Below, piece after piece: positions 1 to 18,165 of a stretch of 64,000 bases of DNA (position 1 is its first letter; every line of letters begins with the position of its first letter). A program made the translations under genes and the position numbers. Source of the stretch: Nitrospira tepida (GTDB lineage Bacteria; Nitrospirota; Nitrospiria; Nitrospirales; Nitrospiraceae). The DNA is taken from assembly GCF_947241125.1 (NCBI RefSeq), contig NZ_OX365700.1, forward strand, positions 1,892,001 to 1,956,000, written 5' to 3'. The notes under the pieces were generated by a model. The model had not been told where the DNA came from. It made no database searches and worked only from the letters and a program-made list of their open reading frames with translations.

Positions 1-1466
1 AGAAGAACGAGGAGCAGTCGCCGTTTGAAATAGCGATAGAGCGAACTCAGCTGTTGTTGACAAAGCTTCCAAAACAGCCTGATGGTTCTTTCGAGGTAAG
101 CCCAGCAGCGCTGCGTAACTTGCCAGAGGCAGAACGGATAGCAGCTTTTACTCCTTCGCCAGTGATCTGTCCTGCGACCGACATCCTGTTCGACGCGTGG
201 GCATTGACATCGGTTCTAGAAAAGCTCCCCGGCAGGCCACCCGTCGCAGATTGGCTGCACGGTGTGGCTGAGTGGGAACCGCCGGAAACCTACGTCGCCT
301 GGCGCGAGGAAGTCGAGGTATTGACGGACGATCTGCTGGCTCGATGCAAGCCCGAGGATCTCCTCGAAGACTATCCACTCAAACCACATGAATCGCTGCG
401 GGATCGTTCGGACCGAGTCCGCAAGGAGTTGGAGAATATTGCTGCACGGGAACCGGACTTCTTGTGCTGGCTGCTTGATGCCAATAATGAAATCCGCGTG
501 CTGAGGACGTGTGAACTTATCCAGAAAGACGAGCAGAAGAAGCCGGTAATTGATCTAAAAAACTGCACAGTGATTCTGCCTCCCAAAGCTGGAGGGTTGA
601 AAAAGGGCCTGTTGGACGGGGACGAGCCATTTGATGAAAACCACAGTGGCCTCTACGACGTGGCGGAGCAGTGGTGCGACGAGGATCGTCAGTTGAGGCG
701 ATGTCGGGTCTGGGATAATGCTGAGCCGCCAGCAGGCATGCGGCTTGTGAGAACAATTGATACCTATACAGGCAAGGAAGAGGGAATAGCAGAGGACGAT
801 GAACAGTACACTCGCCGTTACTGGTACTGGTATGCCCGGCCACGATCTGCAGACGATGATGGCTCACGCACGGCACGTGTGCCACAAGACTTGCAGGAGC
901 ATCTCCAAACAGTTGAAAACGTAGCGAGGCGATTCGTCACTAAGCTTGGTCTTAAAGAAAAAGAACCAGAAGCCAAGGCTGTTACGCTGGCGGCCAAGTG
1001 GCATGATCTTGGTAAGAACCGCGCGACCTGGCAACGGTCCATTGGCAACCACGACTATCCACGTCAAGTACTGGCAAAGTCGGGTGGTCAGATGCGACCG
1101 ATCGATATCACCACATATCGGCATGAGTTTGGCTCGCTGCTCGAAATGAAAACCCTGGCCGAGTTTCAACAGCTCGACCAGGAAACGCAGGATCTGGTCT
1201 TACATTTGGTCGCTGCGCACCATGGACGGGCTCGTCCTCACTTCCCGGCTGATGAGGCGTTTGATCCCGACCATCCTGAAGAAGACGCCGCTGAACTCGC
1301 CAGGCAAGTGCCTCGCCGCTTTGCCCGCCTGCAACGGAAGTACGGCCGCTGGGGATTGGCATATCTTGAATCGCTGGTGCGGGCTGCTGATGCGCTGGCA
1401 TCACAAGCGCTCGGTTCAGATGGCGTGGTGCAGCAAGCGAATGTCACGGGTAAGGTTGCGCGATGA
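1..1466 (+). CDS. cas3: Cas3, C-terminal part with HD nuclease domain (type I-G), 5' partial
   Basis: The frame is open to the left edge of the window, so the helicase part of the gene lies upstream and only the last ~488 codons are seen. The visible part ends in an HD phosphohydrolase-type nuclease domain: the HD pair in KWHDLGKN (codons at 1002-1007), a later AAHHGRARPHF motif (about 1215-1247) and a final RAADALA aspartate motif (about 1381-1398). A C-terminal rather than N-terminal HD domain is typical of Cas3 from subtype I-G/I-U (GSU0051-like). In the known system it nicks and degrades DNA once Cascade has bound a target. Its stop codon overlaps the next cas gene by 4 nt, so the effector genes are probably one operon. 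Confidence 0.85.
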   Translation, partial: KNEEQSPFEIAIERTQLLLTKLPKQPDGSFEVSPAALRNLPEAERIAAFTPSPVICPATDILFDAWALTSVLEKLPGRPPVADWLHGVAEWEPPETYVAWREEVEVLTDDLLARCKPEDLLEDYPLKPHESLRDRSDRVRKELENIAAREPDFLCWLLDANNEIRVLRTCELIQKDEQKKPVIDLKNCTVILPPKAGGLKKGLLDGDEPFDENHSGLYDVAEQWCDEDRQLRRCRVWDNAEPPAGMRLVRTIDTYTGKEEGIAEDDEQYTRRYWYWYARPRSADDDGSRTARVPQDLQEHLQTVENVARRFVTKLGLKEKEPEAKAVTLAAKWHDLGKNRATWQRSIGNHDYPRQVLAKSGGQMRPIDITTYRHEFGSLLEMKTLAEFQQLDQETQDLVLHLVAAHHGRARPHFPADEAFDPDHPEEDAAELARQVPRRFARLQRKYGRWGLAYLESLVRAADALASQALGSDGVVQQANVTGKVAR

Positions 1467-2272
1467 ACACAAAGTACGACCACGTCATCCGCGTCCGCGT
1501 GGACCCGACAAACCCCGGTCAATTCTTCGCATGCTGCGGGTTATTGGAATTGGCCGAACGTTTATGGAAAGAATGTGAAGGGTGGTTTGAAAAGGGAATG
1601 TTTCATCTTCGCACGTTTGGGGATGGAGAAGATAGAACATTGAGTTCGCTGCTGTGCAAGGTATCAAAGACGCCTCTTAGGCAGATTGACACTGAGGACG
1701 ACTTCTCATCTCCAATGGAGTTACCCACTCCATTCGGGCTACGAATTGATTGGTGGAAAGACGAAGACACGGGTGGGAATCAGCTTAAGGTGTGGGCAGG
1801 AAGCATGCGAAGCGTGCGGATCGCGCGAGCGATGCAAGCCACACTGAGTCGGACTGAGTTACACAACGAAGGCCTATTTGAATACGGTGCCGTCGTGTAT
1901 GACCCACAAGAGCCAGATAAAAAGGTCGAGCCTTTCTACTTCGATGCCCGTCGCGGATCGAATGCCTTAGCGATCGATATTGGGTTCATGCCTGACAGCC
2001 TCAGCATGACGACCGTTGCCTATCCGACAGTGGAATTTCTCTGCCTCGTGGGGCTACAGCGTTTTCGGCCAATGCCGACCGATACGAGACGTGTTTTTGA
2101 TTACTCCACCTGGCAGGTACCACTGGCGACTCAAGTGGCGCCTTTAGCCGCGTGTGGTGGTTTGCCCCACGCCAGCGATTGCAGCTACCGGTTTCAGATT
2201 GCCTTTCGCACAGATAAAAGGAAGCACAAGGCCTTTACCCCAGCGACACCTCTTGAAAGGAGCGAATTATGA
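1463..2272 (+). CDS. csb3: Csb3 / Cas8u2-like subunit of type I-G Cascade
   Basis: This 269-residue protein lies between cas3 and csb1, the place of GSU0052-like Csb3/Cas8u2 in type I-G loci. It opens with a basic stretch followed by DPTNPGQFFACCGLLELA, an N-terminal NPGQF..CCGLLELA pattern seen in Csb3 and Csx17 proteins. It is much smaller than ordinary Cas8. In the complex it would take the large-subunit role, recognising the PAM and contacting Cas3; that role is inferred from family and position. Its ATG at 1463 overlaps the cas3 stop (ATGA) and its stop overlaps the next start, which indicates translational coupling. The family call rests on context more than on motifs. Confidence 0.78.
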   Translation: MNTKYDHVIRVRVDPTNPGQFFACCGLLELAERLWKECEGWFEKGMFHLRTFGDGEDRTLSSLLCKVSKTPLRQIDTEDDFSSPMELPTPFGLRIDWWKDEDTGGNQLKVWAGSMRSVRIARAMQATLSRTELHNEGLFEYGAVVYDPQEPDKKVEPFYFDARRGSNALAIDIGFMPDSLSMTTVAYPTVEFLCLVGLQRFRPMPTDTRRVFDYSTWQVPLATQVAPLAACGGLPHASDCSYRFQIAFRTDKRKHKAFTPATPLERSEL

Positions 2273-3375
2273 GTGACGTGCTGACGAAGTATGATGCGTG
2301 GCTGGAAGACACCGGTCCAGCCGCAGTGGTCATCCGAGAATACCTGATGCCGGTCGAAGGGCATGATGGTGTCGTCTTTCCAGCGACCTTTGCGGCCGGT
2401 GATGGTTTCCCAGGTGGATACAACATTGACACTTTCCCTGACGGGACAAACGTGTGCCTGATAGATAGCGTAGGCTCGCAGGCCAACCGGATCGAGCCGT
2501 TGTTCGCCAAGAACGGCTACGCGGGTTTGGTGCCGCAGATCGTCATTAAGGCTGGCGAGAAGCGCGTGAATCTCCTTGAAGCCGGACACCGCGCGGGTGA
2601 TGCGATCATTCGCTGCTCGGCTTTAAAGCAGGAGTTGCAATCTGCCTTCAAGAAGGTGATGAACGGTAACGCCGAGCTATTGGCCAATGTCGCACCAACT
2701 TCAATGGTGTTCGGTGTGTGGGACTCCCGAGACACACAGGCGAAGCTACCTCGGCTTCTCTCGTCAGCAGTTCGCGCTTTTAATGTCCGAAAGCTAACCC
2801 GATCAGCTCAATACGTTCCGGCAGTCGAATATGTGAACGAGGATCTGCTAGAGCTACCTTCCGACCAAAGGACAAAAGATGCCTATGCCGTACGAGGGTT
2901 TATCCACGTTCCGGCCGCAGGAACACATGGCGGTGTGATTGCGACGGGTGGCATCCGTCGCGATGCGACTCTGCACCTTGCCGCCTTGCGTCTGTTGACT
3001 GCGGACCAGGATAAAGAGAAGACCCGCGCCTTGCGTCGGTACGTGTTGGGGCTTGCTCTAACGGCGTTCACCTATTCGCCAATTGGGTATCTCCGACAGG
3101 GCTGCAATCTTGTACTCGACCCGGACAAGAAACGGGAGTTCAAGGCGGTCTATCACGACGGCAGGCGTGAAGATGTGGACGTGAAGCATAAAGAGGCTTC
3201 CGATTACGCCAAGGATGCGGCGAAGGCTTTCGGCATCGACACAAATCGCAAGATAGACGATTGCAAGCCTCCCGACCGCGAGGTCGAGTTTGACAAGGAA
3301 CTCGCAAAGAAAGATGTGGCCGGTGATGATGCTGGTGAGGGAGGACGAAAAGCGAAAGGGAAGAAGGCGAAGTGA
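2269..3375 (+). CDS. csb1: Csb1 / Cas7 backbone protein of type I-G Cascade
   Basis: The 368-residue protein has the Csb1 (GSU0053) arrangement: an early DSVGSQANRIEP segment (residues ~64-75), a central FGVWDSR segment with a KLPRLLSSAVRAFNV stretch, and a GGVIATGGIRRDATLHLAALRLL block in the second half. Csb1 is the Cas7-type RAMP subunit that polymerises along the crRNA to form the backbone of the interference complex. The C-terminus is a highly charged tail rich in Lys, Asp and Glu. The ATG at 2269 overlaps the csb3 stop and has a good Shine-Dalgarno (GAAAGGAG) just upstream. It is third in the cas3-csb3-csb1-csb2 operon. Confidence 0.88.
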   Translation: MSDVLTKYDAWLEDTGPAAVVIREYLMPVEGHDGVVFPATFAAGDGFPGGYNIDTFPDGTNVCLIDSVGSQANRIEPLFAKNGYAGLVPQIVIKAGEKRVNLLEAGHRAGDAIIRCSALKQELQSAFKKVMNGNAELLANVAPTSMVFGVWDSRDTQAKLPRLLSSAVRAFNVRKLTRSAQYVPAVEYVNEDLLELPSDQRTKDAYAVRGFIHVPAAGTHGGVIATGGIRRDATLHLAALRLLTADQDKEKTRALRRYVLGLALTAFTYSPIGYLRQGCNLVLDPDKKREFKAVYHDGRREDVDVKHKEASDYAKDAAKAFGIDTNRKIDDCKPPDREVEFDKELAKKDVAGDDAGEGGRKAKGKKAK

Positions 3376-5015
3376 CGAGAAGCAGTATGCTCACACACTT
3401 TTGCATATCCATCCGTTTGCTCAACCGCGCATTTCACGGTCGGAAAGACCGCCGCGTCCCAGAATGGCCGCCGTCGCCGCTTCGCGTTTATCAAGCCCTG
3501 GTTGCTGCGGCTTCCAGAATGGGAGAAAACGCGTTAGGTGTCGGCGACACCCGATCGGCTTTAACCTGGCTGGAGCGAAGAACGGCTCCGTCCTTGATTA
3601 TTGCGCCGCAGGCGTATTCTTCCAGCCCCAATGGAAAGCGTCACGGACATGTGCTCTCAGTGCCCAATAACGCGATGGATATTGTCGCGAGAGCATGGGG
3701 TCGAGGAAATCTAGCTGGAACAGGAGACACCGATCCAGCAACCCATCGCACCATGAAAACTGTGCATCCAACGCATCTGCTGGACGGTGACACAATCCAT
3801 TACCTGTGGTTCCTTCCTGATCCTGCGTCCAACGGGGACGGCGTGTACCCAGACGTTTTGGCCAAGATTGCCAGCAATCTTGCGGCTCTTGGCTGGGGCA
3901 TCGATATGGCGATTGGGCATGCGGCGCTCCTGTCTGATGAGCAAGTGAGAGCGTTATGCGGAGAACGGTGGGTACCCGGAAGAGAAGGAGTCGAAGATGG
4001 GCTTCGCGTGCCGACGTCCGGGACACTCAACGCGCTCATCGATCGACATGAACGCTTTCTCATGCGGGTGCGGCCGAATGAAACGTTCGATCCCACCCCA
4101 CCATTGCCGGACTCTGCTTACAGGAGAATCGAATATCGAAGGGCCACTGATCCACCGAGGAGGATCGTCGCAGCGTTTTCACTCCTCAAGCCAGATGCCA
4201 GCGGCTTCCGGCCATTTGATACGGTGCGTAGCAACCTTACCCTTGCCGGAATGATGCGGCATGCCGTGACATGCGCCACTCGTCGAGCTGGGTGGCCTGA
4301 GTCGAAGATAGCTGCTTTCGTTCTTGGGCATCGTGAATCTAAAAATGAAAACCACATTCCTGTAGGATCTCGACGATTTGTCTACCTACCGCTTCCCAGT
4401 ATTGAAGGACGGGGCGAGGGGAACGCGCGTGTCGTTGGAAGCATCCGCCGAGTCCTGCTGACCGCATTCGCCGATGACTGTGCGGATGAGATTGCGTGGG
4501 CACGGCGTGCGTTGTCAGGGCGTGACCTTGTTAACGAGGACAGTGGGCAATCCGTGGCGTTGCTCTCGCTTCTGCCCGGCAATGAAAAGATGATCCGCTG
4601 TTATGTCGAGCCTGCTGACACATGGGCCACTGTGACGCCAGTAGTTCTTCCTGGTTATGACGACCCGTCACACTATCGGAGGCGATTAAAGAAAGGGGTC
4701 GAGGCTGAAGAGCAGAAGCGGCTGCTGGAACGTCTGAATGAGAGAATCGACGGACTGCTCCGCAACGCAATTGTCCAGGCTGGCTTTTCCAAAGAATTGG
4801 CGGACCACGCCGAACTTGAATGGCGCAAGGTTGGGTTCTGGGCTGGAACCGATCTGGCCGATCGTTATGGTGTGCCCGATCATCTCAAGCGTTTTCCCAG
4901 AATACATGTGAGACTTCGATGGTGTGATACACAGAATAGACCTGTCGCTGTTCCAGGGCCTATCTGTCTTGGCGGGGGACGATTCTATGGCCTGGGCTTG
5001 TTTGCGGCTGAATAG
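3372..5015 (+). CDS. csb2: Csb2 / Cas5-Cas6 fusion protein of type I-G
   Basis: The 547-residue protein is the GSU0054-like Csb2, a natural fusion of the Cas5 subunit (N-terminal half, which holds the crRNA 5' handle) and the Cas6 repeat endonuclease (C-terminal half). Its N-terminus, LTHFCISIRLLNRAFHGR followed by EWPPSPLRVYQALVAAA, is the usual Csb2 opening. A glycine-rich segment near the end (PGPICLGGGRFYGLGLF) matches the G-rich loop common in RAMP proteins. The GTG at 3372 overlaps the csb1 stop, but an ATG at 3387 gives the more typical N-terminus, so the true start is uncertain by five codons. It would cut the array transcript at the base of the repeat hairpin. Confidence 0.85.
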   Translation: MTRSSMLTHFCISIRLLNRAFHGRKDRRVPEWPPSPLRVYQALVAAASRMGENALGVGDTRSALTWLERRTAPSLIIAPQAYSSSPNGKRHGHVLSVPNNAMDIVARAWGRGNLAGTGDTDPATHRTMKTVHPTHLLDGDTIHYLWFLPDPASNGDGVYPDVLAKIASNLAALGWGIDMAIGHAALLSDEQVRALCGERWVPGREGVEDGLRVPTSGTLNALIDRHERFLMRVRPNETFDPTPPLPDSAYRRIEYRRATDPPRRIVAAFSLLKPDASGFRPFDTVRSNLTLAGMMRHAVTCATRRAGWPESKIAAFVLGHRESKNENHIPVGSRRFVYLPLPSIEGRGEGNARVVGSIRRVLLTAFADDCADEIAWARRALSGRDLVNEDSGQSVALLSLLPGNEKMIRCYVEPADTWATVTPVVLPGYDDPSHYRRRLKKGVEAEEQKRLLERLNERIDGLLRNAIVQAGFSKELADHAELEWRKVGFWAGTDLADRYGVPDHLKRFPRIHVRLRWCDTQNRPVAVPGPICLGGGRFYGLGLFAAE

Positions 5016-5249
5016 ATGCCACACCGACTCCCGGCCATTCCTCCCACTTCGGCCTCGGGCAGTTCGTGCCCGTGGAAGGTTGTGAAACGCAAAACATGAA
5101 ACGGGAGAGAGTGGGCGAAGATGAAAGCCTGAACGCTGAACACGGACGAATGACGATAGACGGGTGACGAATCGTGCAGTGAGGATGGCGCGTCAACGGC
5201 GGAGGAAAAGCTGTTGCGTGACAAGCGGACGGGAGAAAAAGCGCCAATC
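5016..5249. other. Intergenic gap between effector genes and the TA patch, with dispersed motif copy A
   Basis: No convincing gene is seen. Positions 5043-5073 carry a 31-nt motif (core GGCCTCGGGCAGTT) that recurs at 15944-15974 with three C/T differences and, more diverged, at 6033-6053. Around 5149-5170 there is a run of TGACG-type short repeats also seen at 28411-28441. Confidence 0.6.
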
Positions 5250-5459
5250 ATGGACTGGCGCCGGATCGAAGTGCTGGACGACGCGATGGCCGAGGTGCTG
5301 CGCCGGAAAACGCCGGCCGAACGCCTGGCGATCGGGTTTGGGCTGTGGCGATCGGCGAGAAAGATGTTACGGGGACAATTGGCATCGCTGCATCCGGAGT
5401 GGGATGCCCAACGGCTTGAGCGTGAAGTCGCCCGGAGGCTCTCGCATGGAGCTGTATGA
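5250..5459 (+). CDS. Small protein of the type found beside nucleotidyltransferase toxin-like genes
   Basis: This is a 69-residue protein beginning MDWRRIEVLDD with a PAERLAIGFGLWRSARKML segment and ending REVARRLSHG. Small proteins of this shape commonly precede AbiEii/MNT-like nucleotidyltransferase genes, which is recalled knowledge rather than a search result. Here its last codons overlap the start (5446) of exactly such a gene, but only a stump of that gene is left. The ATG at 5250 is preferred over an upstream TTG at 5214 because the conserved part begins there. It has no signal peptide or membrane segment. Its function is unknown; it may be the antitoxin-like partner of a lost toxin. 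Confidence 0.6.
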   Translation: MDWRRIEVLDDAMAEVLRRKTPAERLAIGFGLWRSARKMLRGQLASLHPEWDAQRLEREVARRLSHGAV

Positions 5460-5532
5460 ATTATTGGCGCAGGTGGTGGAGACTTTCGAACGGCTCCATA
5501 TTCCCTATCTGTCCATGGTAGTTGGAGCATGA
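5446..5532 (+). pseudogene. Truncated nucleotidyltransferase (AbiEii/MNT-like) remnant
   Basis: The 28 codons starting MELYELLAQVVETFERL and continuing HIPYL match the opening of small nucleotidyltransferase-fold proteins, in which HIPYL is normally followed by the VTGS catalytic loop. Here the reading breaks immediately after HIPYL into SMVVGA and a stop. The catalytic GS and DxD motifs are therefore missing. The next codon after the stop is the start of the RelE-like gene, so the 3' part was lost at a junction that fuses two toxin-antitoxin modules. The family assignment is inferred from about 22 residues and from the gene before it. Confidence 0.6.
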
Positions 5533-5781
5533 ATGAAATACAAGATTGAGTTCAAGCCAAGAGCGATCAAGGATTTGAAAACCATGTCTTTGCGTGAGCG
5601 TGAAAGGGTTGTCGCGAAGGTGGAAGCACTACAGACCGATCTTGCTGGAGATGTGAAGCGCCTGACTAACTTCACACCGGAATACCGGTTGCGCGTGGGG
5701 GACTACCGTGTGCTGTTTCAGGTTGAGGACGACAGGGTGATGATCTTTCGCGTATTGCCTCGTGATAAAGCCTATCGTTAA
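5533..5781 (+). CDS. RelE/ParE-family toxin
   Basis: The 82-residue protein begins MKYKIEFKPRAIKDLKTM and has the RelE-type order: a helical pair ending near residue 35, then LTNFTPEYRLRVGDYRVLFQVEDD and FRVLPRDKAYR. The R-x-R-VGDYRV-F strand and the basic C-terminus are typical of RelE ribosome-dependent mRNA interferases. It is followed 17 nt later by a Phd/YefM-type small protein, so the module is in toxin-first order. The ATG abuts the stop codon of the truncated nucleotidyltransferase, which suggests a recombination junction. The module sits between the effector and adaptation halves of the CRISPR-Cas locus. Confidence 0.85.
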   Translation: MKYKIEFKPRAIKDLKTMSLRERERVVAKVEALQTDLAGDVKRLTNFTPEYRLRVGDYRVLFQVEDDRVMIFRVLPRDKAYR

Positions 5782-6233: not shown

Positions 6234-7988
6234 ATGGAAATGGAATCACCGGACAAATTAGCGGGGAGCGACATCCCGTTGCTCCCCGCTCGGATGGTCA
6301 ACGAATTCACCTACTGTCCTCGCCTGGCCTATTTCGAATGGGTGGACGGCGAGTTCGCCGACAACGCCGAGACGGTCGAGGGGCGGTTTCATCACCGGCG
6401 CGTGGACCGGCCGCCGGCGCGCCAGACGCGGCGGACGGCGGGGACCGACTCCAGCGAGGCCGGCCCCGGTCCCGCTGAGGAAGAAAAGGCCGGGGCGATC
6501 CATCAGCGGTCGGTCTGGCTGTCCTCCGAGCGGCTCGGGGTGACGGCCAAGATCGACCTGGTGGAGGGCGACGCGGGCTCTGCCGGCGATGGGGTGTGCG
6601 CGGTTGTCCCTGTGGATTACAAGCGCGGGAAGCGCCCGCATACCGCCCAAGGCGCATGGGAGCCGGAGCGGGTGCAGCTCTGCGTGCAGGGGTTGCTGCT
6701 CAGGGAACAGGGTTATGCCTGCGATCATGGCGTGCTCTACTTCGTCGGCTCTCGTGAACGGGTCGAGGTACCGTTTGACGAGGCGTTGATCGCACGAACA
6801 CAGGAGATTTTGGAGGAGATGCGGGCCATGACGACGCGCTCCGTGGCCCCGCCGCCGTTGGTGGACAGCCCCAAATGTCCGCGTTGTTCGCTGGTGGGTC
6901 TTTGTCTGCCGGACGAAATCGGCTGGCTGCGAACGCCTCACGAGGGGGAAGCCCCGACACTGAGGAAGCTGGTTCCCACCAACGATGATGCCCTCCCGCT
7001 CCACGTGCAGACCCCCGGCGCGAAACTCGCCAAGGACGGGGAGTGCCTGAAGATCAAAGATCACGACGACACCATCGGGGAGGCTCGGCTGGTGGAAACT
7101 TCCCAGGTCGTCCTGTACGGGGCGGTGCAGGTTAGCACCCAAGTGATTCAGGAGCTGTGCAAGCGAGACATCCCGCTCGTCTACTGTTCGAGCGGCGGCT
7201 GGTTCTATGGTATGACCACCGGTCTGTCGCACAAGCACGTTGAGCTGCGGCGGCGGCAATATGCCGCGGCGGCCGATCCGGCTCGGTGCCTGTGCTTGGC
7301 GAGACGCTTCGTTCAGGCCAAGATCGCGAACTGCCGGACCCTGCTCCGCCGCAATCACCGGGCTGCGCCGGAGACGGTGATTCAGGAACTGAAGCACGAT
7401 CACCTGCAGGCCGGCTTGGCGGAGTCGTTGGAGTCGTTGCTCGGCATCGAAGGCACCGGGGCCCGGCGGTATTTCTCGGAGTTTGCCGGCATGTTGAAGG
7501 AGGCGGAGCCAGGCGCGCGGTTCGATTTCACGGGGCGCAACCGCCGGCCGCCGCGCGATCCCGTCAACGCCATGCTGTCGTTGCTGTATTCGATGTTGGC
7601 GCGGGAGTGGACGGTGGTGCTGCACAGCGTGGGGCTCGATCCCTATTTGGGGTTCTACCACCAGCCTCGCTACGGCCGCCCAGCGTTGGCCCTCGACATG
7701 ATGGAGGAGTTTCGGCCGTTGATTGCGGATTCGGCCGTGCTGACCGCGATCAATAACGGCGAGATCCGCCCGACGGATTGGATCGAGCGGATGGGCGCCG
7801 TGACCTTGACGCCGGAGGGGCGGCGCCGGTTGATCGACACCTACGAGCGGCGAATGGGCCAGGAGTTGACGCATCCGGTGTTCGGCTATCAGATCAGCTA
7901 CCGCCGCGTGCTGGAAGTGCAGGCCCGGCTGCTCGGGCGCTACCTGCTGGGCGAGATTCCGGAGTTGCCCGCGATCATTACGCGGTGA
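6234..7988 (+). CDS. cas4-cas1: Cas4-Cas1 fusion (CRISPR adaptation integrase)
   Basis: The 584-residue protein joins a Cas4 nuclease (about 1-230) to Cas1 (about 245-584), the fused form typical of type I-G. Cas4 has the iron-sulphur cysteines in YCPRLAYFEW (C28) and the cluster CPRCSLVGLC (about 214-224), plus the VDYKRGK nuclease motif near residue 126. Cas1 keeps its metal site: E406 in LGIEGTGARRYF, H476 in GFYHQPRYGRPALALDMMEE, with D488 and E491/E492. Cas4 trims prespacers at the PAM and Cas1 with Cas2 inserts them at the leader end. The ATG at 6234 follows a G-rich ribosome site; a second ATG at 6240 is possible. cas2 follows after 5 nt. Confidence 0.95.
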   Translation: MEMESPDKLAGSDIPLLPARMVNEFTYCPRLAYFEWVDGEFADNAETVEGRFHHRRVDRPPARQTRRTAGTDSSEAGPGPAEEEKAGAIHQRSVWLSSERLGVTAKIDLVEGDAGSAGDGVCAVVPVDYKRGKRPHTAQGAWEPERVQLCVQGLLLREQGYACDHGVLYFVGSRERVEVPFDEALIARTQEILEEMRAMTTRSVAPPPLVDSPKCPRCSLVGLCLPDEIGWLRTPHEGEAPTLRKLVPTNDDALPLHVQTPGAKLAKDGECLKIKDHDDTIGEARLVETSQVVLYGAVQVSTQVIQELCKRDIPLVYCSSGGWFYGMTTGLSHKHVELRRRQYAAAADPARCLCLARRFVQAKIANCRTLLRRNHRAAPETVIQELKHDHLQAGLAESLESLLGIEGTGARRYFSEFAGMLKEAEPGARFDFTGRNRRPPRDPVNAMLSLLYSMLAREWTVVLHSVGLDPYLGFYHQPRYGRPALALDMMEEFRPLIADSAVLTAINNGEIRPTDWIERMGAVTLTPEGRRRLIDTYERRMGQELTHPVFGYQISYRRVLEVQARLLGRYLLGEIPELPAIITR

Positions 7989-7993
7989 CCGCC

Positions 7994-8284
7994 ATGCGCC
8001 GGTGCTATTTGGTCACGTACGATATCGCCGATCCGAAACGGCTCCGGCGCGTGTTCAAGACGATGAAGGGCTATGGGGCGCATTTGCAGTTGTCGGTCTT
8101 TCAGTGCGATCTCCCAGAGATCGATCTGGTGCGCATGAAGGTCGCGCTGACGGAGATCATCCATCAGAGCGAGGATCAAGTGCTGATCATCGATCTGGGT
8201 CCGACGGAGAGCCGGCCGATCAAGCGGTTCGAGGCGCTCGGTCTTCGAGTCGAGGTGGAGGAACGACGCGCACGTGTGGTGTGA
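7994..8284 (+). CDS. cas2: Cas2, CRISPR adaptation protein
   Basis: The 96-residue protein begins MRRCYLVTYDIADPKRLRRV, with the conserved first-strand aspartate of YDI and a GYGAHLQLSVFQCDL stretch typical of Cas2. It forms the dimer core of the Cas1-Cas2 integrase. The chosen ATG at 7994 lies 5 nt after the cas4-cas1 stop and gives the normal Cas2 length; the longer open frame starting at 7778 only overlaps cas1 in another frame. It is the last cas gene before the array, 218 nt upstream of the first repeat. Confidence 0.95.
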   Translation: MRRCYLVTYDIADPKRLRRVFKTMKGYGAHLQLSVFQCDLPEIDLVRMKVALTEIIHQSEDQVLIIDLGPTESRPIKRFEALGLRVEVEERRARVV

Positions 8285-8502
8285 GGGGACATGGTCGCCG
8301 CATCTCACGCGAGCGGTCGAGTGATGAGGCAGGAACGGGAGGTGCTCGCAGAGAAGAACGAGTCGAAACAAGCAGAAACACAGTACAACTGGCTGCAAAA
8401 GGAGGTGGGAGACAGAAATGAAAGACTTGTGTTGGTCACATGACGGAAGCGCTCGCAACGTGCGGCAGAAGCCCAGGCCGATCGCTGCCTTGCATGAGAA
8501 CT
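8285..8502 (+). promoter_or_regulatory. CRISPR leader region
   Basis: These 218 nt separate cas2 from the first repeat, on the side where the repeat polarity (ATTGAAGC at the 3' end) and the cas operon place the leader. It is not AT-rich, unlike many leaders. I could not identify a clear -35/-10 pair or an IHF-like site. New spacers are expected to enter at 8503. Confidence 0.7.
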
Positions 8503-11500
8503 GATTCCACGGCAGCAATGCCGTGGCCCCATTGAAGCGGAAACAGGGCCGGCTCCGCCGCTCTGGGCCGCTCTGGGATTCCACGGCAGCAATGCCGTGG
8601 CCCCATTGAAGCTGGGAGGAACAGTCAGCGGGTTGCTGGCGGATCTCGTGATTCCACGGCAGCAATGCCGTGGCCCCATTGAAGCTGCCCAGGCGTAAGC
8701 GGATACAGCACTGCGGTGCGCGATTCCACGGCAGCAATGCCGTGGCCCCATTGAAGCCGGGGCGAGTTGTACGCCCAAGCGCAGCGTGAGGCCTAGATTC
8801 CACGGCAGCAATGCCGTGGCCCCATTGAAGCCGGATTTTCAACGCCTGCCTTGGGCGCTCTTCCCGGATTCCACGGCAGCAATGCCGTGGCCCCATTGAA
8901 GCCTTCAGCCCGCGTCCCATCGGCTCCCGCCATTCATCGGATTCCACGGCAGCAATGCCGTGGCCCCATTGAAGCAATGCAAACCCAGGAAGCTGCGCCG
9001 GCTCCTACGTCGATTCCACGGCAGCAATGCCGTGGCCCCATTGAAGCAACTGCATCTCCTTCGCTCGATTTCTGGAGAATGCCAGATTCCACGGCAGCAA
9101 TGCCGTGGCCCCATTGAAGCAGCTTCTCCAGATCGCGCATCCAATTTTCCAGGTCCTTGATTCCACGGCAGCAATGCCGTGGCCCCATTGAAGCTCCGAA
9201 TTGGTTGTCATAGGCATAGCACGTCACCGGATTCCACGGCAGCAATGCCGTGGCCCCATTGAAGCAACATGCTGCAGGCGCGAAAAAGAGAGCCGTTCTG
9301 GGTTCCTGATTCCACGGCAGCAATGCCGTGGCCCCATTGAAGCCGCACATGGAAAGGAAAGGAACAACATGAGCGAAAAGATTCCACGGCAGCAATGCCG
9401 TGGCCCCATTGAAGCAACTCCCCTCGATCGGATCACCACAGATCGAGTGGATGGATTCCACGGCAGCAATGCCGTGGCCCCATTGAAGCGACGATCAGAT
9501 CCGGCTCGCCAATATCCCGCCAGCGCGATTCCACGGCAGCAATGCCGTGGCCCCATTGAAGCCAGAACTTGGCCGGTCGCGCCGATGGCCTGCTTGTCCC
9601 GATTCCACGGCAGCAATGCCGTGGCCCCATTGAAGCCAAACTTCCCGTTCCCAGGCCTCGATTGCCACCCATGATTCCACGGCAGCAATGCCGTGGCCCC
9701 ATTGAAGCCTGCGGGGCCACTTGAACCATAACGGCCAGAACATTGATTCCACGGCAGCAATGCCGTGGCCCCATTGAAGCCTGGTTCTCGGTGTGGACAT
9801 CCCCGGTCGTCACGAGATTCCACGGCAGCAATGCCGTGGCCCCATTGAAGCGAATTCCACATACTTAGCCGGCATGATGGCCGCTATTGCGATTCCACGG
9901 CAGCAATGCCGTGGCCCCATTGAAGCACCATGATCTGCCATTCGTCGTGAACGAATGCTGCGGTGGATTCCACGGCAGCAATGCCGTGGCCCCATTGAAG
10001 CGGGTGACTTCGTACTCCCGGTTGAAGTGCCAGTCCCCGCGATTCCACGGCAGCAATGCCGTGGCCCCATTGAAGCCAGCGCGTCCATGAGCCGAACCAG
10101 TTCCACCCGCCCGATTCCACGGCAGCAATGCCGTGGCCCCATTGAAGCACCACACACCAAAAGCCAGCCCGCGGGCCTGACGCGGGATTCCACGGCAGCA
10201 ATGCCGTGGCCCCATTGAAGCCCTGGGTTGTAGTGTTTGCCCGGTAGCGTCCGCATGTCGATTCCACGGCAGCAATGCCGTGGCCCCATTGAAGCGTGTT
10301 CTTACTTACCCTTCATGTCCACCCGGACGGGGATTCCACGGCAGCAATGCCGTGGCCCCATTGAAGCCACAATAATCTCTTTGACCTTGTGGGTCGCGGC
10401 GATCGATTCCACGGCAGCAATGCCGTGGCCCCATTGAAGCCACGGTTAACCGGGCGCAACGAAAAGGAGGAGAACGATTCCACGGCAGCAATGCCGTGGC
10501 CCCATTGAAGCAGGCCCCTCCTCTTCAACTGTGTGGACGAGCGAAACGGATTCCACGGCAGCAATGCCGTGGCCCCATTGAAGCTTGTAGACTTGGAGAC
10601 GATGCGTCCGCGCCTCGTCCGACGATTCCACGGCAGCAATGCCGTGGCCCCATTGAAGCTCTGAGACTGCGACTGATCGGAACTCGCGCTGGCTCCAGAT
10701 TCCACGGCAGCAATGCCGTGGCCCCATTGAAGCGGAGCCTGTCCGGGGGAGCCATCATTCCGCTCCCGCCCGATTCCACGGCAGCAATGCCGTGGCCCCA
10801 TTGAAGCGGTCAACAACTCTGGCGGGACAGCGGGAAGATGGTGGGATTCCACGGCAGCAATGCCGTGGCCCCATTGAAGCTCCTGGATGGCATCAGCGCC
10901 CGTCACAGAGCACAGGCCGATTCCACGGCAGCAATGCCGTGGCCCCATTGAAGCTTGCTATTTTCCATCTTGACTCTGGTATAGCTGCGAGATTCCACGG
11001 CAGCAATGCCGTGGCCCCATTGAAGCGTGTTCTCCGCGATGACACGGCTGTTCTCCACGATCCGGATTCCACGGCAGCAATGCCGTGGCCCCATTGAAGC
11101 CAGGTCAAGCTCTTGACCGTCCTGGTAACGGGCTCGCAGATTCCACGGCAGCAATGCCGTGGCCCCATTGAAGCAGCCGTTCCCGTTGGTTGGCTCTCCG
11201 AACAATCCGCGTGATTCCACGGCAGCAATGCCGTGGCCCCATTGAAGCACCAAAGAGGTCTCGGAGAGTGGCAAGCTGTCCGACGATTCCACGGCAGCAA
11301 TGCCGTGGCCCCATTGAAGCCAGACCGTCTACACTCCCGATGGTCGGCAGATTGTGTGATTCCACGGCAGCAATGCCGTGGCCCCATTGAAGCCAGCCTC
11401 AAGGGGAAGATGGCTTCCGCTCGGGGCTGGAGGATTCCACGGCAGCAATGCCGTGGCCCCATTGAAGCTCCGTGATCAGGTCCTTCGCTTCCTCCAGAGT

Positions 11501-14500
11501 GAGGATTCCACGGCAGCAATGCCGTGGCCCCATTGAAGCGGGGTTGACCAGATACAGTACGATGGCACCTTGATTGCGGATTCCACGGCAGCAATGCCGT
11601 GGCCCCATTGAAGCTGGAACTGAGGCTGAACGCCATCACGAAGGCCATGCGGATTCCACGGCAGCAATGCCGTGGCCCCATTGAAGCGACTCGATCGTCA
11701 AGCCAGGCGGGCGGATCATCTTCCGATTCCACGGCAGCAATGCCGTGGCCCCATTGAAGCATCAATCGCAGCGTGAACGTACTGAAGTCGTCCGCCCGGA
11801 TTCCACGGCAGCAATGCCGTGGCCCCATTGAAGCGTGTCATGCTCGCATCACCACGATGATCTGGCTTGTTGGATTCCACGGCAGCAATGCCGTGGCCCC
11901 ATTGAAGCAAGGCGCGATTCAGCAACACCGGATTGACTTCGCACGATTCCACGGCAGCAATGCCGTGGCCCCATTGAAGCCGGTATTCTTCGCCGTAGAT
12001 CGCACCCGGGAGCGTCGATTCCACGGCAGCAATGCCGTGGCCCCATTGAAGCGCGAAAGGCTTTCACCCCTTGAGGGCTATGAAAATCGATTCCACGGCA
12101 GCAATGCCGTGGCCCCATTGAAGCTGACAAGCACACGGTACAGAGCCGCTCTCGACCATCGATTCCACGGCAGCAATGCCGTGGCCCCATTGAAGCCGTA
12201 AGAGTACTAGCCCGAACGACCGAACAGGCGTGTGGATTCCACGGCAGCAATGCCGTGGCCCCATTGAAGCAGAAAAATTCAGGTCAGTCGCTCGCGCGGC
12301 CAATAGATTCCACGGCAGCAATGCCGTGGCCCCATTGAAGCGAGCGTTTGCTGGTTCTGCGCCGTGGCGCTGCTGCCCGGATTCCACGGCAGCAATGCCG
12401 TGGCCCCATTGAAGCATCGGCCACGCGTCGCAGCTCGGGCTTCACCGCGGCGAAGATTCCACGGCAGCAATGCCGTGGCCCCATTGAAGCTCCCGATATT
12501 CGCAAATTACTTGGAGTTATCCACAGTGATTCCACGGCAGCAATGCCGTGGCCCCATTGAAGCAGCGCCTGCCGGAGATTACTCACACGAGCGAATTGCA
12601 GCGATTCCACGGCAGCAATGCCGTGGCCCCATTGAAGCTAGGCCAACATGCCCGCCACGATGCCCACGATCAACAGATTCCACGGCAGCAATGCCGTGGC
12701 CCCATTGAAGCGTTAGAATTCCCAGATGGTCCAGGTGGTCTCTAGCGTCGATTCCACGGCAGCAATGCCGTGGCCCCATTGAAGCTTACCAGGCTCGCGG
12801 GACGAATGCGGCGTGGTCCGCGGATTCCACGGCAGCAATGCCGTGGCCCCATTGAAGCATAGCGCGTTTGAGGAAGATGATCCTGTTATTGAATGATTCC
12901 ACGGCAGCAATGCCGTGGCCCCATTGAAGCGGCGCCTTTACGGCCTGCCCAAGCTTGGGGCTGGATGGATTCCACGGCAGCAATGCCGTGGCCCCATTGA
13001 AGCGCGAATGAGATTCGAGGTGTGATGTTGGGGATTGGGTGGGATTCCACGGCAGCAATGCCGTGGCCCCATTGAAGCATGTTGGACACCAACCTGTCCG
13101 ACATGGAGCGATACCGATTCCACGGCAGCAATGCCGTGGCCCCATTGAAGCACGCCCGCGTCCTCCAGTGCCTTCGCCACCGCTCGCTGATTCCACGGCA
13201 GCAATGCCGTGGCCCCATTGAAGCATCGGAAGCTGCTAGCCACACCCGGAATGGGCAGGGGATTCCACGGCAGCAATGCCGTGGCCCCATTGAAGCCCAC
13301 CGCCCCCTTAGCCGAGGTTGTTACCGTGCAATGCGATTCCACGGCAGCAATGCCGTGGCCCCATTGAAGCCCGGTGGACACGGCGAGCTCTACCACGTTG
13401 GCGGACCTGAAGATTCCACGGCAGCAATGCCGTGGCCCCATTGAAGCAGGATTATTTGACTGCCTTAGCTTCTTCTAGCCCGCTGATTCCACGGCAGCAA
13501 TGCCGTGGCCCCATTGAAGCCGCGAGGCCGCCTTCACTCATGGGAGTTGCGACCCATGGATTCCACGGCAGCAATGCCGTGGCCCCATTGAAGCACTGCT
13601 CGATCATTACGCCCCGCTCGCCCGCGCGCCCCGATTCCACGGCAGCAATGCCGTGGCCCCATTGAAGCGCATTCGCAGTCTGCACATTCTGTGTCGTGCA
13701 TGCCATACGATTCCACGGCAGCAATGCCGTGGCCCCATTGAAGCTGCTTTGAATTCTCGATGGCAATTCAGGAGGGCGAGACGATTCCACGGCAGCAATG
13801 CCGTGGCCCCATTGAAGCTTTTCCCAGGGGGGCGTATCGCCGGCCTCTGCCCGCGATTCCACGGCAGCAATGCCGTGGCCCCATTGAAGCTTCTCCCATT
13901 TCGCCCTCTCTTCCTCGAAACGACGCGATTCCACGGCAGCAATGCCGTGGCCCCATTGAAGCGGTCAAATGTCTTAGAATACTTTGCCTTTCTTGCAAGG
14001 ATTCCACGGCAGCAATGCCGTGGCCCCATTGAAGCATAATTAAATCTGGTTTAATTGCATGAATGAGCTCTGATTCCACGGCAGCAATGCCGTGGCCCCA
14101 TTGAAGCGGCATGTTCATGATTCTTCTCCTTTCTCATTCCAGGGATTCCACGGCAGCAATGCCGTGGCCCCATTGAAGCTTGATCCAGCACGGGTATGGC
14201 CGGATCGAAATCCAGGTGGATTCCACGGCAGCAATGCCGTGGCCCCATTGAAGCTGGACATCCGCGACCGGTTCGATCTCGTCCTCATCCGCGATTCCAC
14301 GGCAGCAATGCCGTGGCCCCATTGAAGCAATGCCGGATCCATTTTGGATTGCACTTCGACCGACTCAGATTCCACGGCAGCAATGCCGTGGCCCCATTGA
14401 AGCCTCAAAGCCCAAGTCGATAAGTTCATCTAGGGGGCCGATTCCACGGCAGCAATGCCGTGGCCCCATTGAAGCCTGAAGGAACGCTTGATTGTCCGAA

Positions 14501-15056
14501 AGTTGCGGCAGGGGCGATTCCACGGCAGCAATGCCGTGGCCCCATTGAAGCCGGCTTTGGCTCCGGCTTTGGCTCTTCACGGACCGGTTGATTCCACGGC
14601 AGCAATGCCGTGGCCCCATTGAAGCCTGATATCTCACCCCGGGCCAGACCCATGGCGAGTGGATTCCACGGCAGCAATGCCGTGGCCCCATTGAAGCGAG
14701 CTTTGGCGTTTTCGTGATGACACGTAGGTAGTAGATTCCACGGCAGCAATGCCGTGGCCCCATTGAAGCGCGCAGTTTGTAGGAGACGTGTTCTTCCTTT
14801 CCGCGATTCCACGGCAGCAATGCCGTGGCCCCATTGAAGCAATAATCGTAAAGTTCCATTTATTGCAACATCTTGGATTCCACGGCAGCAATGCCGTGGC
14901 CCCATTGAAGCTTGGACCGTCATTTTATTCATTTCTTAACGAGAATTGAGATTCCACGGCAGCAATGCCGTGGCCCCATTGAAGCTGAGATTCGTTCAGG
15001 CGTCATCACCTTCCCTCCATGATTCCACGGCAGCAATGCCGTGGCCCCATTGAAGC
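8503..15056 (+). CRISPR. Type I-G CRISPR array: 90 repeats of 36 nt, 89 spacers
   Basis: Counting repeat starts line by line gives 90 repeats from 8503-8538 to 15021-15056 and 89 spacers of 35-42 nt, most 36-39. Each repeat begins GATTCC, has 8-nt arms CCACGGCA and TGCCGTGG around a GCAA loop, and ends CCCCATTGAAGC. All copies read as identical, including the last. The ATTGAAGC end resembles the common 8-nt crRNA 5' handle, so transcription is taken as the + strand, continuing from the cas operon. The stem would be the Cas6-domain substrate. Repeated open frames in the array arise from translating the repeat and are not genes. Confidence 0.98.
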
Positions 15057-15194: not shown

Positions 15195-15407
15195 TCAGAG
15201 CAGGTCTTTGAATTGTTCGGGAGAAATCTCTGCCGAGTCTAGGATGTGTTTCAAGGTGCCAGGCTTGATGGTGTGATGACGGGGGATGATGACGAGATGC
15301 TTGTCGTTGGTCATTGAAATATGCTTGCCCTCACGAAGTACGTAGAAGCCGGCGTGTTTGAGGGCTCTCACGACACGGTCATGAAAGACCTGGGGCAGTT
15401 TCGTCAT
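15195..15407 (-). CDS. hicA: HicA-family mRNA interferase toxin
   Basis: The 70-residue protein begins MTKLPQVFHDRVVRALKHAG, followed by the classic HicA core GFYVLREGKHISMTN and a VIIPRHHTIKPGTLKHIL segment. HicA is a double-stranded RNA-binding-fold endoribonuclease; its catalytic histidine is the one in the GKHISMTN-type motif. The gene starts within the stop codon of hicB (4-nt overlap), so it is the second gene of an antitoxin-first hicBA operon on the minus strand. The module sits between the last perfect CRISPR repeat and two decayed repeats. Confidence 0.9.
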   Translation of the reverse strand: MTKLPQVFHDRVVRALKHAGFYVLREGKHISMTNDKHLVIIPRHHTIKPGTLKHILDSAEISPEQFKDLL

Positions 15408-15607
15408 ACGCTGACTTCGACGGTCTTGAGCTTATGACGGCGTTTGAGATCCTCAATGCTTTCCAGGTAGGCCTTAATGGCGTCTTTGATATTTTCCAGG
15501 GCTTCTTCTTCGGTTTCGCCCTGGGAGACGCAGCCTTTTAGCGTGGGACAATATACGACATACCCGCCGGCCTCCTGATCTTGCTCTATGACGATTGGAT
15601 ATTCCAT
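15404..15607 (-). CDS. hicB: HicB-family antitoxin
   Basis: The 67-residue protein, starting MEYPIVIEQDQEAGGYVVYC, has the HicB partial RNase H-like fold signature: the GGYVVYCPTLKGCVSQGET strand pair followed by the helix EEALENIKDAIKAYLE. It would bind and mask HicA. The ATG at 15607 is preferred because GGGAGG lies just upstream; a longer frame to 15640 lacks such a site. It overlaps hicA by 4 nt. Confidence 0.9.
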   Translation of the reverse strand: MEYPIVIEQDQEAGGYVVYCPTLKGCVSQGETEEEALENIKDAIKAYLESIEDLKRRHKLKTVEVSV

Positions 15608-15702
15608 ATGGCCTCCCAAGTCATATGTTGTGGAGGTCATTATAACAGAGAGCGAGAGCGGTTAAGGCTTACTGATCAAATTCTGCAAGGTGAGAGCGAT
15701 AT

Positions 15703-15726
15703 GGTTCCATGACACCACATTGAAGC
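15703..15726 (+). repeat. Decayed CRISPR repeat with hairpin deleted
   Basis: It reads GGTTCCA at one end and CACATTGAAGC at the other, matching the two ends of the array repeat, while most of the central stem-loop is missing (24 nt rather than 36). It is separated by 37 nt, a normal spacer length, from the next remnant. Confidence 0.6.
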
Positions 15727-15763
15727 GAGCCGCACCCCCGACCCCTTGATCTTCGAGTTCCCA

Positions 15764-15796
15764 AATTCCCCTGCACAGCCGTGGCTCCATTGAAGG
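15764..15796 (+). repeat. Decayed CRISPR repeat
   Basis: This 33-nt copy matches the array repeat at about 28 positions: AATTCC at the start, GCCGTGGCTCCATTGAAG at the end, and a 3-nt gap in the hairpin region. The orientation is the same as the array. Confidence 0.75.
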
Positions 15797-16263
15797 CCGG
15801 CCCTCAACGGCGTGGGGCTCTGGACAGAGGCGTCCGGGTGAGATGTGAACGAAGAACGGAAGCGCGGGTCTTGTCCCGTGGCATGCGCGAGGGACAAGGC
15901 GCACGTACTCTTGTGAGGCTTCCGGTTACGTGGCACAATGCGGCCCACTTTGGCCTCGGGCAGTTTGTGCCTGTCCGCCGTGCTTGCACAGACAGGTCGA
16001 TGGGGGAGATAGTGTCGCGTGATGGGTGATCGGCGATGGCGGGGCACGAGTCGATGATATGTGATTGGCCCTCACCCGGCCTCTCCCCTCAGGAGAGAGG
16101 GGAATCGGAGGACTGTGATGCAGGATGGGGATGGGTAATGGTAAGGCGTAAGGGAGTCCGGTGAGACGTGCGGGATCGAATGATCAATAAGGCGTGACGG
16201 GGGGACAACGTTCCGGCGTGGGCGCCGCGAAGGGGATCCAAACCCTGTGTGAAGGAGGCGATG

Positions 16264-17430
16264 ATGGCGGACAATCAGACTTCCTTGTTCGATGCCGATA
16301 CCGCCGACCGGGGGATGACGGGTGAGCTGGTCCTGCGCGCGCAGCCGAACCGGCCGCTGACCAAGGCGCAACGCACGTTCAACCGGCTGGTGGGCAAGAT
16401 CGAGACATTGCGGAAGAAGCTGGCCGGCGACACGCGCCGCCTGGATGCGGCGCTCGCGTATGATGCACAGCATCTGCATCCGCGGCGGGTGAGGCTGACG
16501 GCCTTGCGCAAGGACCTGCTGCGCGCGCTGGGGCCGTTTCTCGACGATCCGCGCCTGCCGCGCAAGCGTGAGCGGAAGGCGCTGGAGGGCCTCATCGCGG
16601 ACCATTTGGACGCGCTCGTGCAGGCGGAGGGCTCGCTCGCCGATAGCGATCTTCGGGCGCTCTTCGAACGGGTGCATCGGATCAGCTTCGACCGCGCGGA
16701 ACGAGAAGGGTTCGAAGCCGTGCGCTCGATGATGGAGGAGGCCTTCGGCGAATTCGGTCTCGATGTGGATTTGTCCGACATTGAGCCGAATGCGAGCGAG
16801 GAAACGCTGGCCGCCAAGGCGGCTGAGATGGCGGACCGGCTCCAACGGCAGTTCGAGGAAGAGGCCGGCGCCCGGTCAGACCGGCCTCAATCGAAGCGCC
16901 AATCGGCGAAGGAGCTGCGGCTGAAGCAGGCGGAGGAGATGCGCAAGAAGAGCCTCACGACCATCTACCGACAACTCGCGAAGGCGCTGCACCCCGACCT
17001 CGAGCCCGATCCTGAACGGAGGGAGCGCAAGGTCGCGCTGATGCAGGAGCTGACCACCGCCTACCATGACAACGATCTGCACAGCCTCCTCCGTCTGGAA
17101 CTCGCCTGGCTCCAGCGGGAAGAAGGCGACATCGAGCGGCTGACCGACGAGAAGTTGGCGGTCTACAACCAGGTGCTCAAGGAGCAGGCCGACGAACTCC
17201 AGTGGGAGCTTGACGAGTTGCCGTACCATCCCCGCTATCAGCCGATCATGGTCGAGACCGGGCCGCTCGGGATCCCCATGCAAACGGACGGTCCGACGGA
17301 GGCGTGGCGGCTGGACCGGATGATTGTCAGCCTGGAGGCGGGGCTGGCGCGACTGCGGACCGACGAGGCGCTCGCGGAGGTGCGCGGCGCCATCCAGGCG
17401 TTCAGGGCCGTGAGTCAGGGTCGGTCTTAG
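16264..17430 (+). CDS. J-domain-containing protein
   Basis: The 388-residue protein is mostly helical and charged. A J-domain-like segment lies near residues 235-285: TIYRQLAKALHPDLEPDPERR followed by a helix that includes ELTTAYHDNDLHSLLRLE. The HPD tripeptide needed to stimulate Hsp70 ATPase is present. Unlike DnaJ there is no Gly/Phe region or zinc finger, and the J domain is internal rather than N-terminal. The start at 16264 (or 16261) is chosen because AAGGAGG lies 5-6 nt upstream. The N-terminal region has no recognisable domain. It is probably a specialised cochaperone whose client is unknown. Confidence 0.7.
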   Translation: MADNQTSLFDADTADRGMTGELVLRAQPNRPLTKAQRTFNRLVGKIETLRKKLAGDTRRLDAALAYDAQHLHPRRVRLTALRKDLLRALGPFLDDPRLPRKRERKALEGLIADHLDALVQAEGSLADSDLRALFERVHRISFDRAEREGFEAVRSMMEEAFGEFGLDVDLSDIEPNASEETLAAKAAEMADRLQRQFEEEAGARSDRPQSKRQSAKELRLKQAEEMRKKSLTTIYRQLAKALHPDLEPDPERRERKVALMQELTTAYHDNDLHSLLRLELAWLQREEGDIERLTDEKLAVYNQVLKEQADELQWELDELPYHPRYQPIMVETGPLGIPMQTDGPTEAWRLDRMIVSLEAGLARLRTDEALAEVRGAIQAFRAVSQGRS

Positions 17431-17497: not shown

Positions 17498-18070
17498 TTA
17501 CGGCAAGAGGTCGGCGACAGAGACCGAGGCGTCGGGGCGGGCGAGCGGCGTGATCTTGTCGGTGGCCGTCAACCGTTGGCTGGCGTGGTAGCGAGCCGGC
17601 TGGTCGGCGGAGGACATCGGGTCGCGGTACACCTCGAGGCAGCGTTCCGCGAGATTGACGATCCAGTACTCAGGGACGCCGGCGCGGGCATAAATCGCCC
17701 TCTTCTGGTCCCGATCCAACGGGAGGGTGGTGTCTGATACCTCGACAAGGAGCAGAGCCGAGCGAGGGTGTTGGTTGCGATAATCGTCCGGGGCTCCTGG
17801 AACAACCGCAAGGTCTGGTTCCGGCTCCGAATCGGGATCAACGATAAGCGGCATTTGCACGCGGACCCAGACATTCGGTCCAAAGATGCGGTCGAGCACG
17901 CGTTGGGTCTTTCCGATGGCTGCGGCATGCGGGCTGTTTTGGGGAGTCATGGTGACGATTTCACCGTCGATCAGTTGGACACGGTCGTCCGGACTGAAGA
18001 TGCCCGCTTCGGCCATGCGGTCGTATTCCTGACGAGTCCAGCGTTTGGTTTGGATGGCCGGTGCAGCCAT
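17498..18070 (-). CDS. Uma2-family (DUF820) PD-(D/E)XK endonuclease-like protein
   Basis: The 190-residue protein has the Uma2 layout: RWTRQEYDRMAEAGIFSPDD at the N-terminus, LIDGEIV, then EPEPDLAVV (~residues 95-105) and LLLVEVSDTTLPLDRDQKRAIYARAGVPEYWIV. The D...ExSxxTlxxD pattern and the K of the DQKR helix form the PD-(D/E)XK-type site. Such proteins are common and often multicopy in cyanobacteria and Nitrospira; their biological role is unclear. The ATG at 18070 has CGAGGG upstream. A longer frame to 18142 would run into a CRISPR-repeat remnant and is unlikely. Confidence 0.85.
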   Translation of the reverse strand: MAAPAIQTKRWTRQEYDRMAEAGIFSPDDRVQLIDGEIVTMTPQNSPHAAAIGKTQRVLDRIFGPNVWVRVQMPLIVDPDSEPEPDLAVVPGAPDDYRNQHPRSALLLVEVSDTTLPLDRDQKRAIYARAGVPEYWIVNLAERCLEVYRDPMSSADQPARYHASQRLTATDKITPLARPDASVSVADLLP

Positions 18071-18125: not shown

Positions 18126-18165
18126 GAATTCCACGGCATCACGGCCGTGGCGCCATTGCATGAAG
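18126..18165 (+). repeat. Solitary decayed CRISPR-like repeat
   Basis: The sequence begins GAATTCCACGGC and continues GGCCGTGGCGCCATTG, ending with a GAAG after a small insertion. It matches the array repeat closely and keeps 7-bp stem arms CCACGGC and GCCGTGG with a 6-nt loop. It lies about 3 kb beyond the array, in the same orientation, next to the start of the Uma2 gene. Confidence 0.7.

Follow-up and report, generated by a model that had tools for sequence, protein, structure and literature searches.

The repeats of a CRISPR array are commonly identical with the exception of the terminal repeat, from which the 3' end is often missing, and the polymorphism of this last repeat was reviewed together with the collapse of arrays (PMC8047081). 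The authors of CRISPRDetect likewise described distal ends with mutations and deletions (PMC4869251). Another arrangement of degraded repeats is CreTA, which possesses two degenerate repeats, the first of them the more diverged one (PMC8501985, PMC9458426).

The window analyzed here, a stretch of 64,000 nucleotides at positions 1892001-1956000 of a single-contig genome of 4.73 Mb, carries a type I-G CRISPR-Cas locus (formerly I-U, GSU type). It resembles the type I-G systems with a Cas4/1 fusion in its full set of effector and adaptation genes, the 36-nt hairpin repeat, the leader, and the location of the array right after cas2, and it differs from them in nothing essential; toxin-antitoxin genes are located both in the interval from csb2 to cas4/1 and past the array.

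The type I-G locus and its array

The effector gene block as a whole occupies positions 1-5015 of the + strand. The features up to the distal end of the array are as follows:

From 1 (+), 3' part of the Cas3g gene, whose start lies about 1.3 kb upstream of the window (NCBIfam, Pfam, and PADLOC)
1463-2272 (+), Cas8g2 (NCBIfam, Pfam, and PADLOC)
2269-3375 (+), Cas7g/Csb1 (NCBIfam, Pfam, and PADLOC)
3372-5015 (+), Cas5/6g/Csb2 (NCBIfam, Pfam, and PADLOC)
5164-5532 (+), small open reading frame without family match, between csb2 and cas4/1
5533-5781 (+), ParE-family toxin gene, between csb2 and cas4/1 (Pfam PF05016)
6234-7988 (+), Cas4g/Cas1g fusion for adaptation (NF049935, 795.9 bits at a cut-off of 560)
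7985-8284 (+), Cas2 (Pfam PF09827, E value of 8.5e-18)
8393-8502 (+), leader, conserved in 18 related arrays, where it adjoins the first repeat
8503-15056 (+), CRISPR array of 90 identical 36-nt repeats and 89 unique spacers, with a perfect last repeat

The locus is an ordinary, complete type I-G immune system: the signature genes for Csb1/Cas7g, Csb2/Cas5-6g, Cas8g2, and Cas3g are all present, as are both adaptation genes, for the Cas4/Cas1 fusion and Cas2, and the leader and an array with regular spacers, as expected of this type. A broken Cas3g gene, suspected from the list of open reading frames in the window, was ruled out because the frame is open across the window edge. The ParE-family toxin gene and the small open reading frame (5164-5781) occupy a slot that is taken by HicAB or Uma2 in the relatives.

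The sequence at 8393-8502 corresponds to the leader found in 18 related arrays, so the array runs from its leader end at 8503 to its distal end at 15056. The preliminary description had stated that the 90 repeats are identical from first to last, and this was confirmed: the 36-nt repeat GATTCCACGGCAGCAATGCCGTGGCCCCATTGAAGC is present in exactly 90 copies, with zero mismatches up to and including the final repeat at 15021-15056. The 89 spacers are all distinct and 35 to 42 nt long. Elsewhere in the 4.73-Mb genome, no further copy of GATTCCACGGCAGCAATGCCGTGGCCCCATTGAAGC with up to three mismatches was found, and the exact repeat was absent from all other genome contigs and viral contigs searched. 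With zero changes over 3,240 nt of repeat, the 95% upper bound on change lies at about 9e-4 per site, which limits the mean divergence to about 0.1%. Per-generation mutation rates of bacteria are many orders of magnitude below 9e-4 per site, so this bound constrains the age of the array only loosely. The 90-repeat array is probably active.

A search with the spacers gave no match to phage records and weak matches only to plasmids, and two spacers compared with viral contigs had no exact match there. Confident shared spacers or targets were not found in 175 genomes of the family, in which the best partial matches outside the own genome reached 88 to 91% over 32 nt and 100% over 22 nt. The own genome contained a single 24-nt match to a spacer, at 96%.

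Repeat decay in related arrays

The array was compared with arrays of related type I-G loci of the same family, with each repeat measured against the consensus of its own array. Among the nonterminal repeats of 19 arrays, that of the window counted, 593 of 597 matched the consensus, and the four exceptions were variants common to several repeats (G153) or to the last two repeats (G024) of an array. The last repeat was changed in G002, G013, G026, G141, and G153. In G024, G063, and G079 and, weakly, in G011, the array is followed one spacer further on by a copy that is truncated or worn. Eight of the 17 related arrays with a covered distal end (G030, G164, G080, G095, G085, G077, G122, and G139) displayed no trace of a worn end. 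The array of the window groups with these eight perfect-ended ones, with no worn copy within 110 nt of its last repeat. Repeat decay in this family is thus a step at the terminal copy and not a gradient, in line with the published descriptions cited above. Since the internal repeats of the relatives are nearly invariant and 8 of 17 ends are perfect, identical repeats need no special process. The expectation that the trailing end of an old array is usually mutated held insofar as the terminal copy is often worn, but not for the perfect ends of eight relatives, and it goes too far to demand mutated repeats of every long array.

Worn ends were more common in longer arrays (P = 0.018, one-sided rank test on 17 arrays), in a test that was post hoc and in which G011 was scored as worn on weak evidence. 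The 90-repeat array is the longest of the comparison set. Two other arrays are present in the same genome, with their polarity deduced from the cas genes. In the one with 49 repeats (L013), the last two repeats are variant. In the one with 57 repeats (L014, 4328-8452), ten repeats at the end away from cas1 are of an alternative version, with one standard repeat standing among them; because these ten keep a variant at the presumed distal end, the repeats of this array are not homogenized. A worn end should be expected for the array of the window because longer arrays tend to have one and both other arrays of the same genome keep variants.

The type I-G array of the relative G063 is split between repeats 42 and 43 by 1.25 kb of inserted DNA with a transposase-like frame (L079:5172-6387), an event comparable to the split proposed below for the window. 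The worn copy past the last repeat of G079 (L083) has the loop CTCAAATG, as in the repeat of G063, while its own array has CAGAGATG, so that terminal copies can preserve older versions of a repeat.

Worn repeat copies beyond the array

Downstream of the array, toxin-antitoxin genes and other reading frames alternate with degraded copies of the repeat:

15195-15407 (-), HicA toxin (Pfam match; PF07927 and PF15919 for the HicA/HicB pair)
15404-15640 (-), HicB-like antitoxin (Pfam match, same pair)
15703-15726 (+), worn copy 1, with the 3' 12 nt kept (11 of 12) and the hairpin deleted
15727-15763 (+), 37-nt stretch of spacer length between worn copies 1 and 2, a putative fossil spacer
15764-15796 (+), worn copy 2, with a 3-nt deletion and a broken hairpin; score of 19.5
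16249-17430 (+), open reading frame of 393 amino acids, with DNA 77 to 80% identical in five other genomes of the family
17498-18070 (-), Uma2-family gene (Pfam PF05685, E value of 2.1e-30), with a conserved 5' flank up to 18126
18127-18162 (+), worn copy 3, with 8 of 36 positions different, 14 of 14 stem bases intact, and the 3' end lost; score of 23

The 393-amino-acid frame had no match in Pfam, NCBIfam, or PADLOC. The worn copies are situated 0.65 and 3.1 kb past the end of the array and on the same strand. Copies 2 and 3, the two clearest, score 19.5 and 23, and none of 300 resampled 5-kb sequences scored higher than 16.5, so the decayed copies at 15703-15796, reported earlier from inspection, are real. 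Copy 3 had been missed and is newly found here. Its eight changes leave the stem untouched, which has a probability of about 0.011 if the changes were random, and its predicted folding energy of -13.3 kcal/mol comes close to the -14.9 kcal/mol of the true repeat. Copy 3 has the appearance of a repeat that once terminated an earlier version of the array. In the relatives, the 5' flank of Uma2 runs into other DNA from the exact base where copy 3 begins in the window, indicating a junction at this position.

With its invariant internal repeats and worn copies lacking the 3' end, this region resembles the arrays with polymorphic terminal repeats or of the "collapse and repopulate" kind (PMC8047081). 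Unlike in those arrays, the worn copies of the window do not adjoin the array but sit behind other genes. The unit at 15703-15796 is also similar to CreTA in that a stretch of spacer length is flanked by two degenerate repeats near a toxin gene, here HicAB, and in the stronger divergence of the first repeat (PMC8501985, PMC9458426), and might be read as a CreA-like guide RNA instead of a fossil. This is extremely improbable, and the unit was rejected as CreTA-like on three grounds. As indicated by folding, the processing hairpin is lost in both copies. Complementarity of the 37-nt stretch to local promoters or to those of the cas genes did not exceed that of shuffled controls, and in the test for complementarity to the toxin promoter, its best local seed match was inside the shuffled range. 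The unit is not conserved, the HicAB or Uma2 genes of relatives having no such repeats alongside. Moreover, the neighbor is in this case a pair of proteins in which the toxin comes with an antitoxin of its own, unlike in CreTA.

Origin of the uniform array

The array is probably an ordinary one in which turnover keeps the repeats young, and its old distal end would have been split off by gene cassettes. Following established CRISPR biology, each unit added at the leader end would be a copy of the first repeat, and older units would be lost by deletion through recombination between repeats, so that all 90 standing repeats would be recent copies free of private mutations. HicAB, followed by the 393-amino-acid frame and Uma2, would have parted the old distal end from the array, and its likely remains are the copy of terminal type at 18127 and the fossil unit with its two worn copies at 15703-15796. 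The perfect last repeat may be either a former internal repeat or the sole repeat that survived a collapse of the array. Turnover and displacement are supported by the perfect repeats, the unique spacers, the complete cas genes, and the conserved leader. Further support comes from the same-strand worn copies, which score well above chance and of which two are separated by the length of one spacer and the third, with its stem intact and its 3' end missing, is similar to the terminal copies of relatives. The junction at the start of copy 3, the other two arrays of the genome, which keep variants at one end, and the reviewed cases of array collapse and polymorphic terminal repeats (PMC8047081) also agree with this reading. 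The proposal in the preliminary description that the original trailer was cut off remains the best reading of the displaced copies and is strengthened by the copy at 18127, but a perfect end taken alone is not strange, as 8 of 17 related arrays have one and truncation is not required to explain the last repeat. A long uniform array can arise without special repair, with the record of its age kept only in the terminal copy. A displaced terminal copy would mean a lost clock, and uniformity alone is no evidence of fast acquisition.

The frequency of perfect ends in the family (8 of 17) also fits plain growth from a single repeat that never had a worn end, as do the zero changes in 3,240 nt, which are compatible with a modest age. 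The downstream copies could then derive from a separate older array. This is unlikely, because most arrays that lack a worn end are short, according to the post hoc test mentioned above (P = 0.018), whereas that of the window is the longest, and because the worn copies follow shortly downstream of the array in the same orientation, with none elsewhere in the genome within three mismatches. Gene conversion among the repeats, offered earlier as one option, would hold all 90 copies uniform and would agree with the invariance of 593 of 597 internal repeats across the family. It is very improbable and not needed: copying from the leader repeat accounts for uniformity unaided, ten variant repeats persist in the 57-repeat array of the same genome and two in the 49-repeat array, at one end each, and shared variants are retained in G153 and G024. 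The assembly of long arrays of repeats carries a risk, and repeats may have been smoothed or units collapsed. The array sequence contains no sign of a collapse, with no duplicated spacer among the 89 and no irregular unit, and a general smoothing is contradicted by the variant repeats kept in two other arrays of the same assembly, which makes an artifact extremely improbable. Turnover combined with displacement of the old end is preferred to these explanations.

HicAB and Uma2 genes near type I-G loci

The HicAB copies of the relatives are located beside the type I-G cas genes or past the array. A Uma2 gene was found no more than about 3 kb from the locus, beside cas4/1 or past the array, in 9 of the 21 genomes with the system (that of the window, G011, G024, G026, G079, G080, G095, G141, and G153), and HicA adjoins the locus in 7 of the 21 (that of the window, G002, G024, G026, G063, G139, and G164), both figures being inflated by the shared descent of the loci. 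For Uma2, the chance expectation was about 0.1, given about 25 Uma2 genes in the 21 genomes and a span of 15 kb, which was the analyst's choice. A motif by the Uma2 genes of relatives, GAGGATTGAAAA, was dropped as a candidate CRISPR repeat, since it also occurs far from arrays and precedes a conserved gene.

Tentatively, the distal side of the family's type I-G arrays and the slot before cas4/1 might be a preferred landing place of HicAB and Uma2, maybe as accessory or addiction modules, the arrival of which could detach an old array end, as proposed for the window. The recurrence of both at type I-G loci is a side lead that can be tested. Several of the HicA copies adjoining the locus are broken or truncated, and further hicAB-like DNA is present in G036, G077, G085, and G141.
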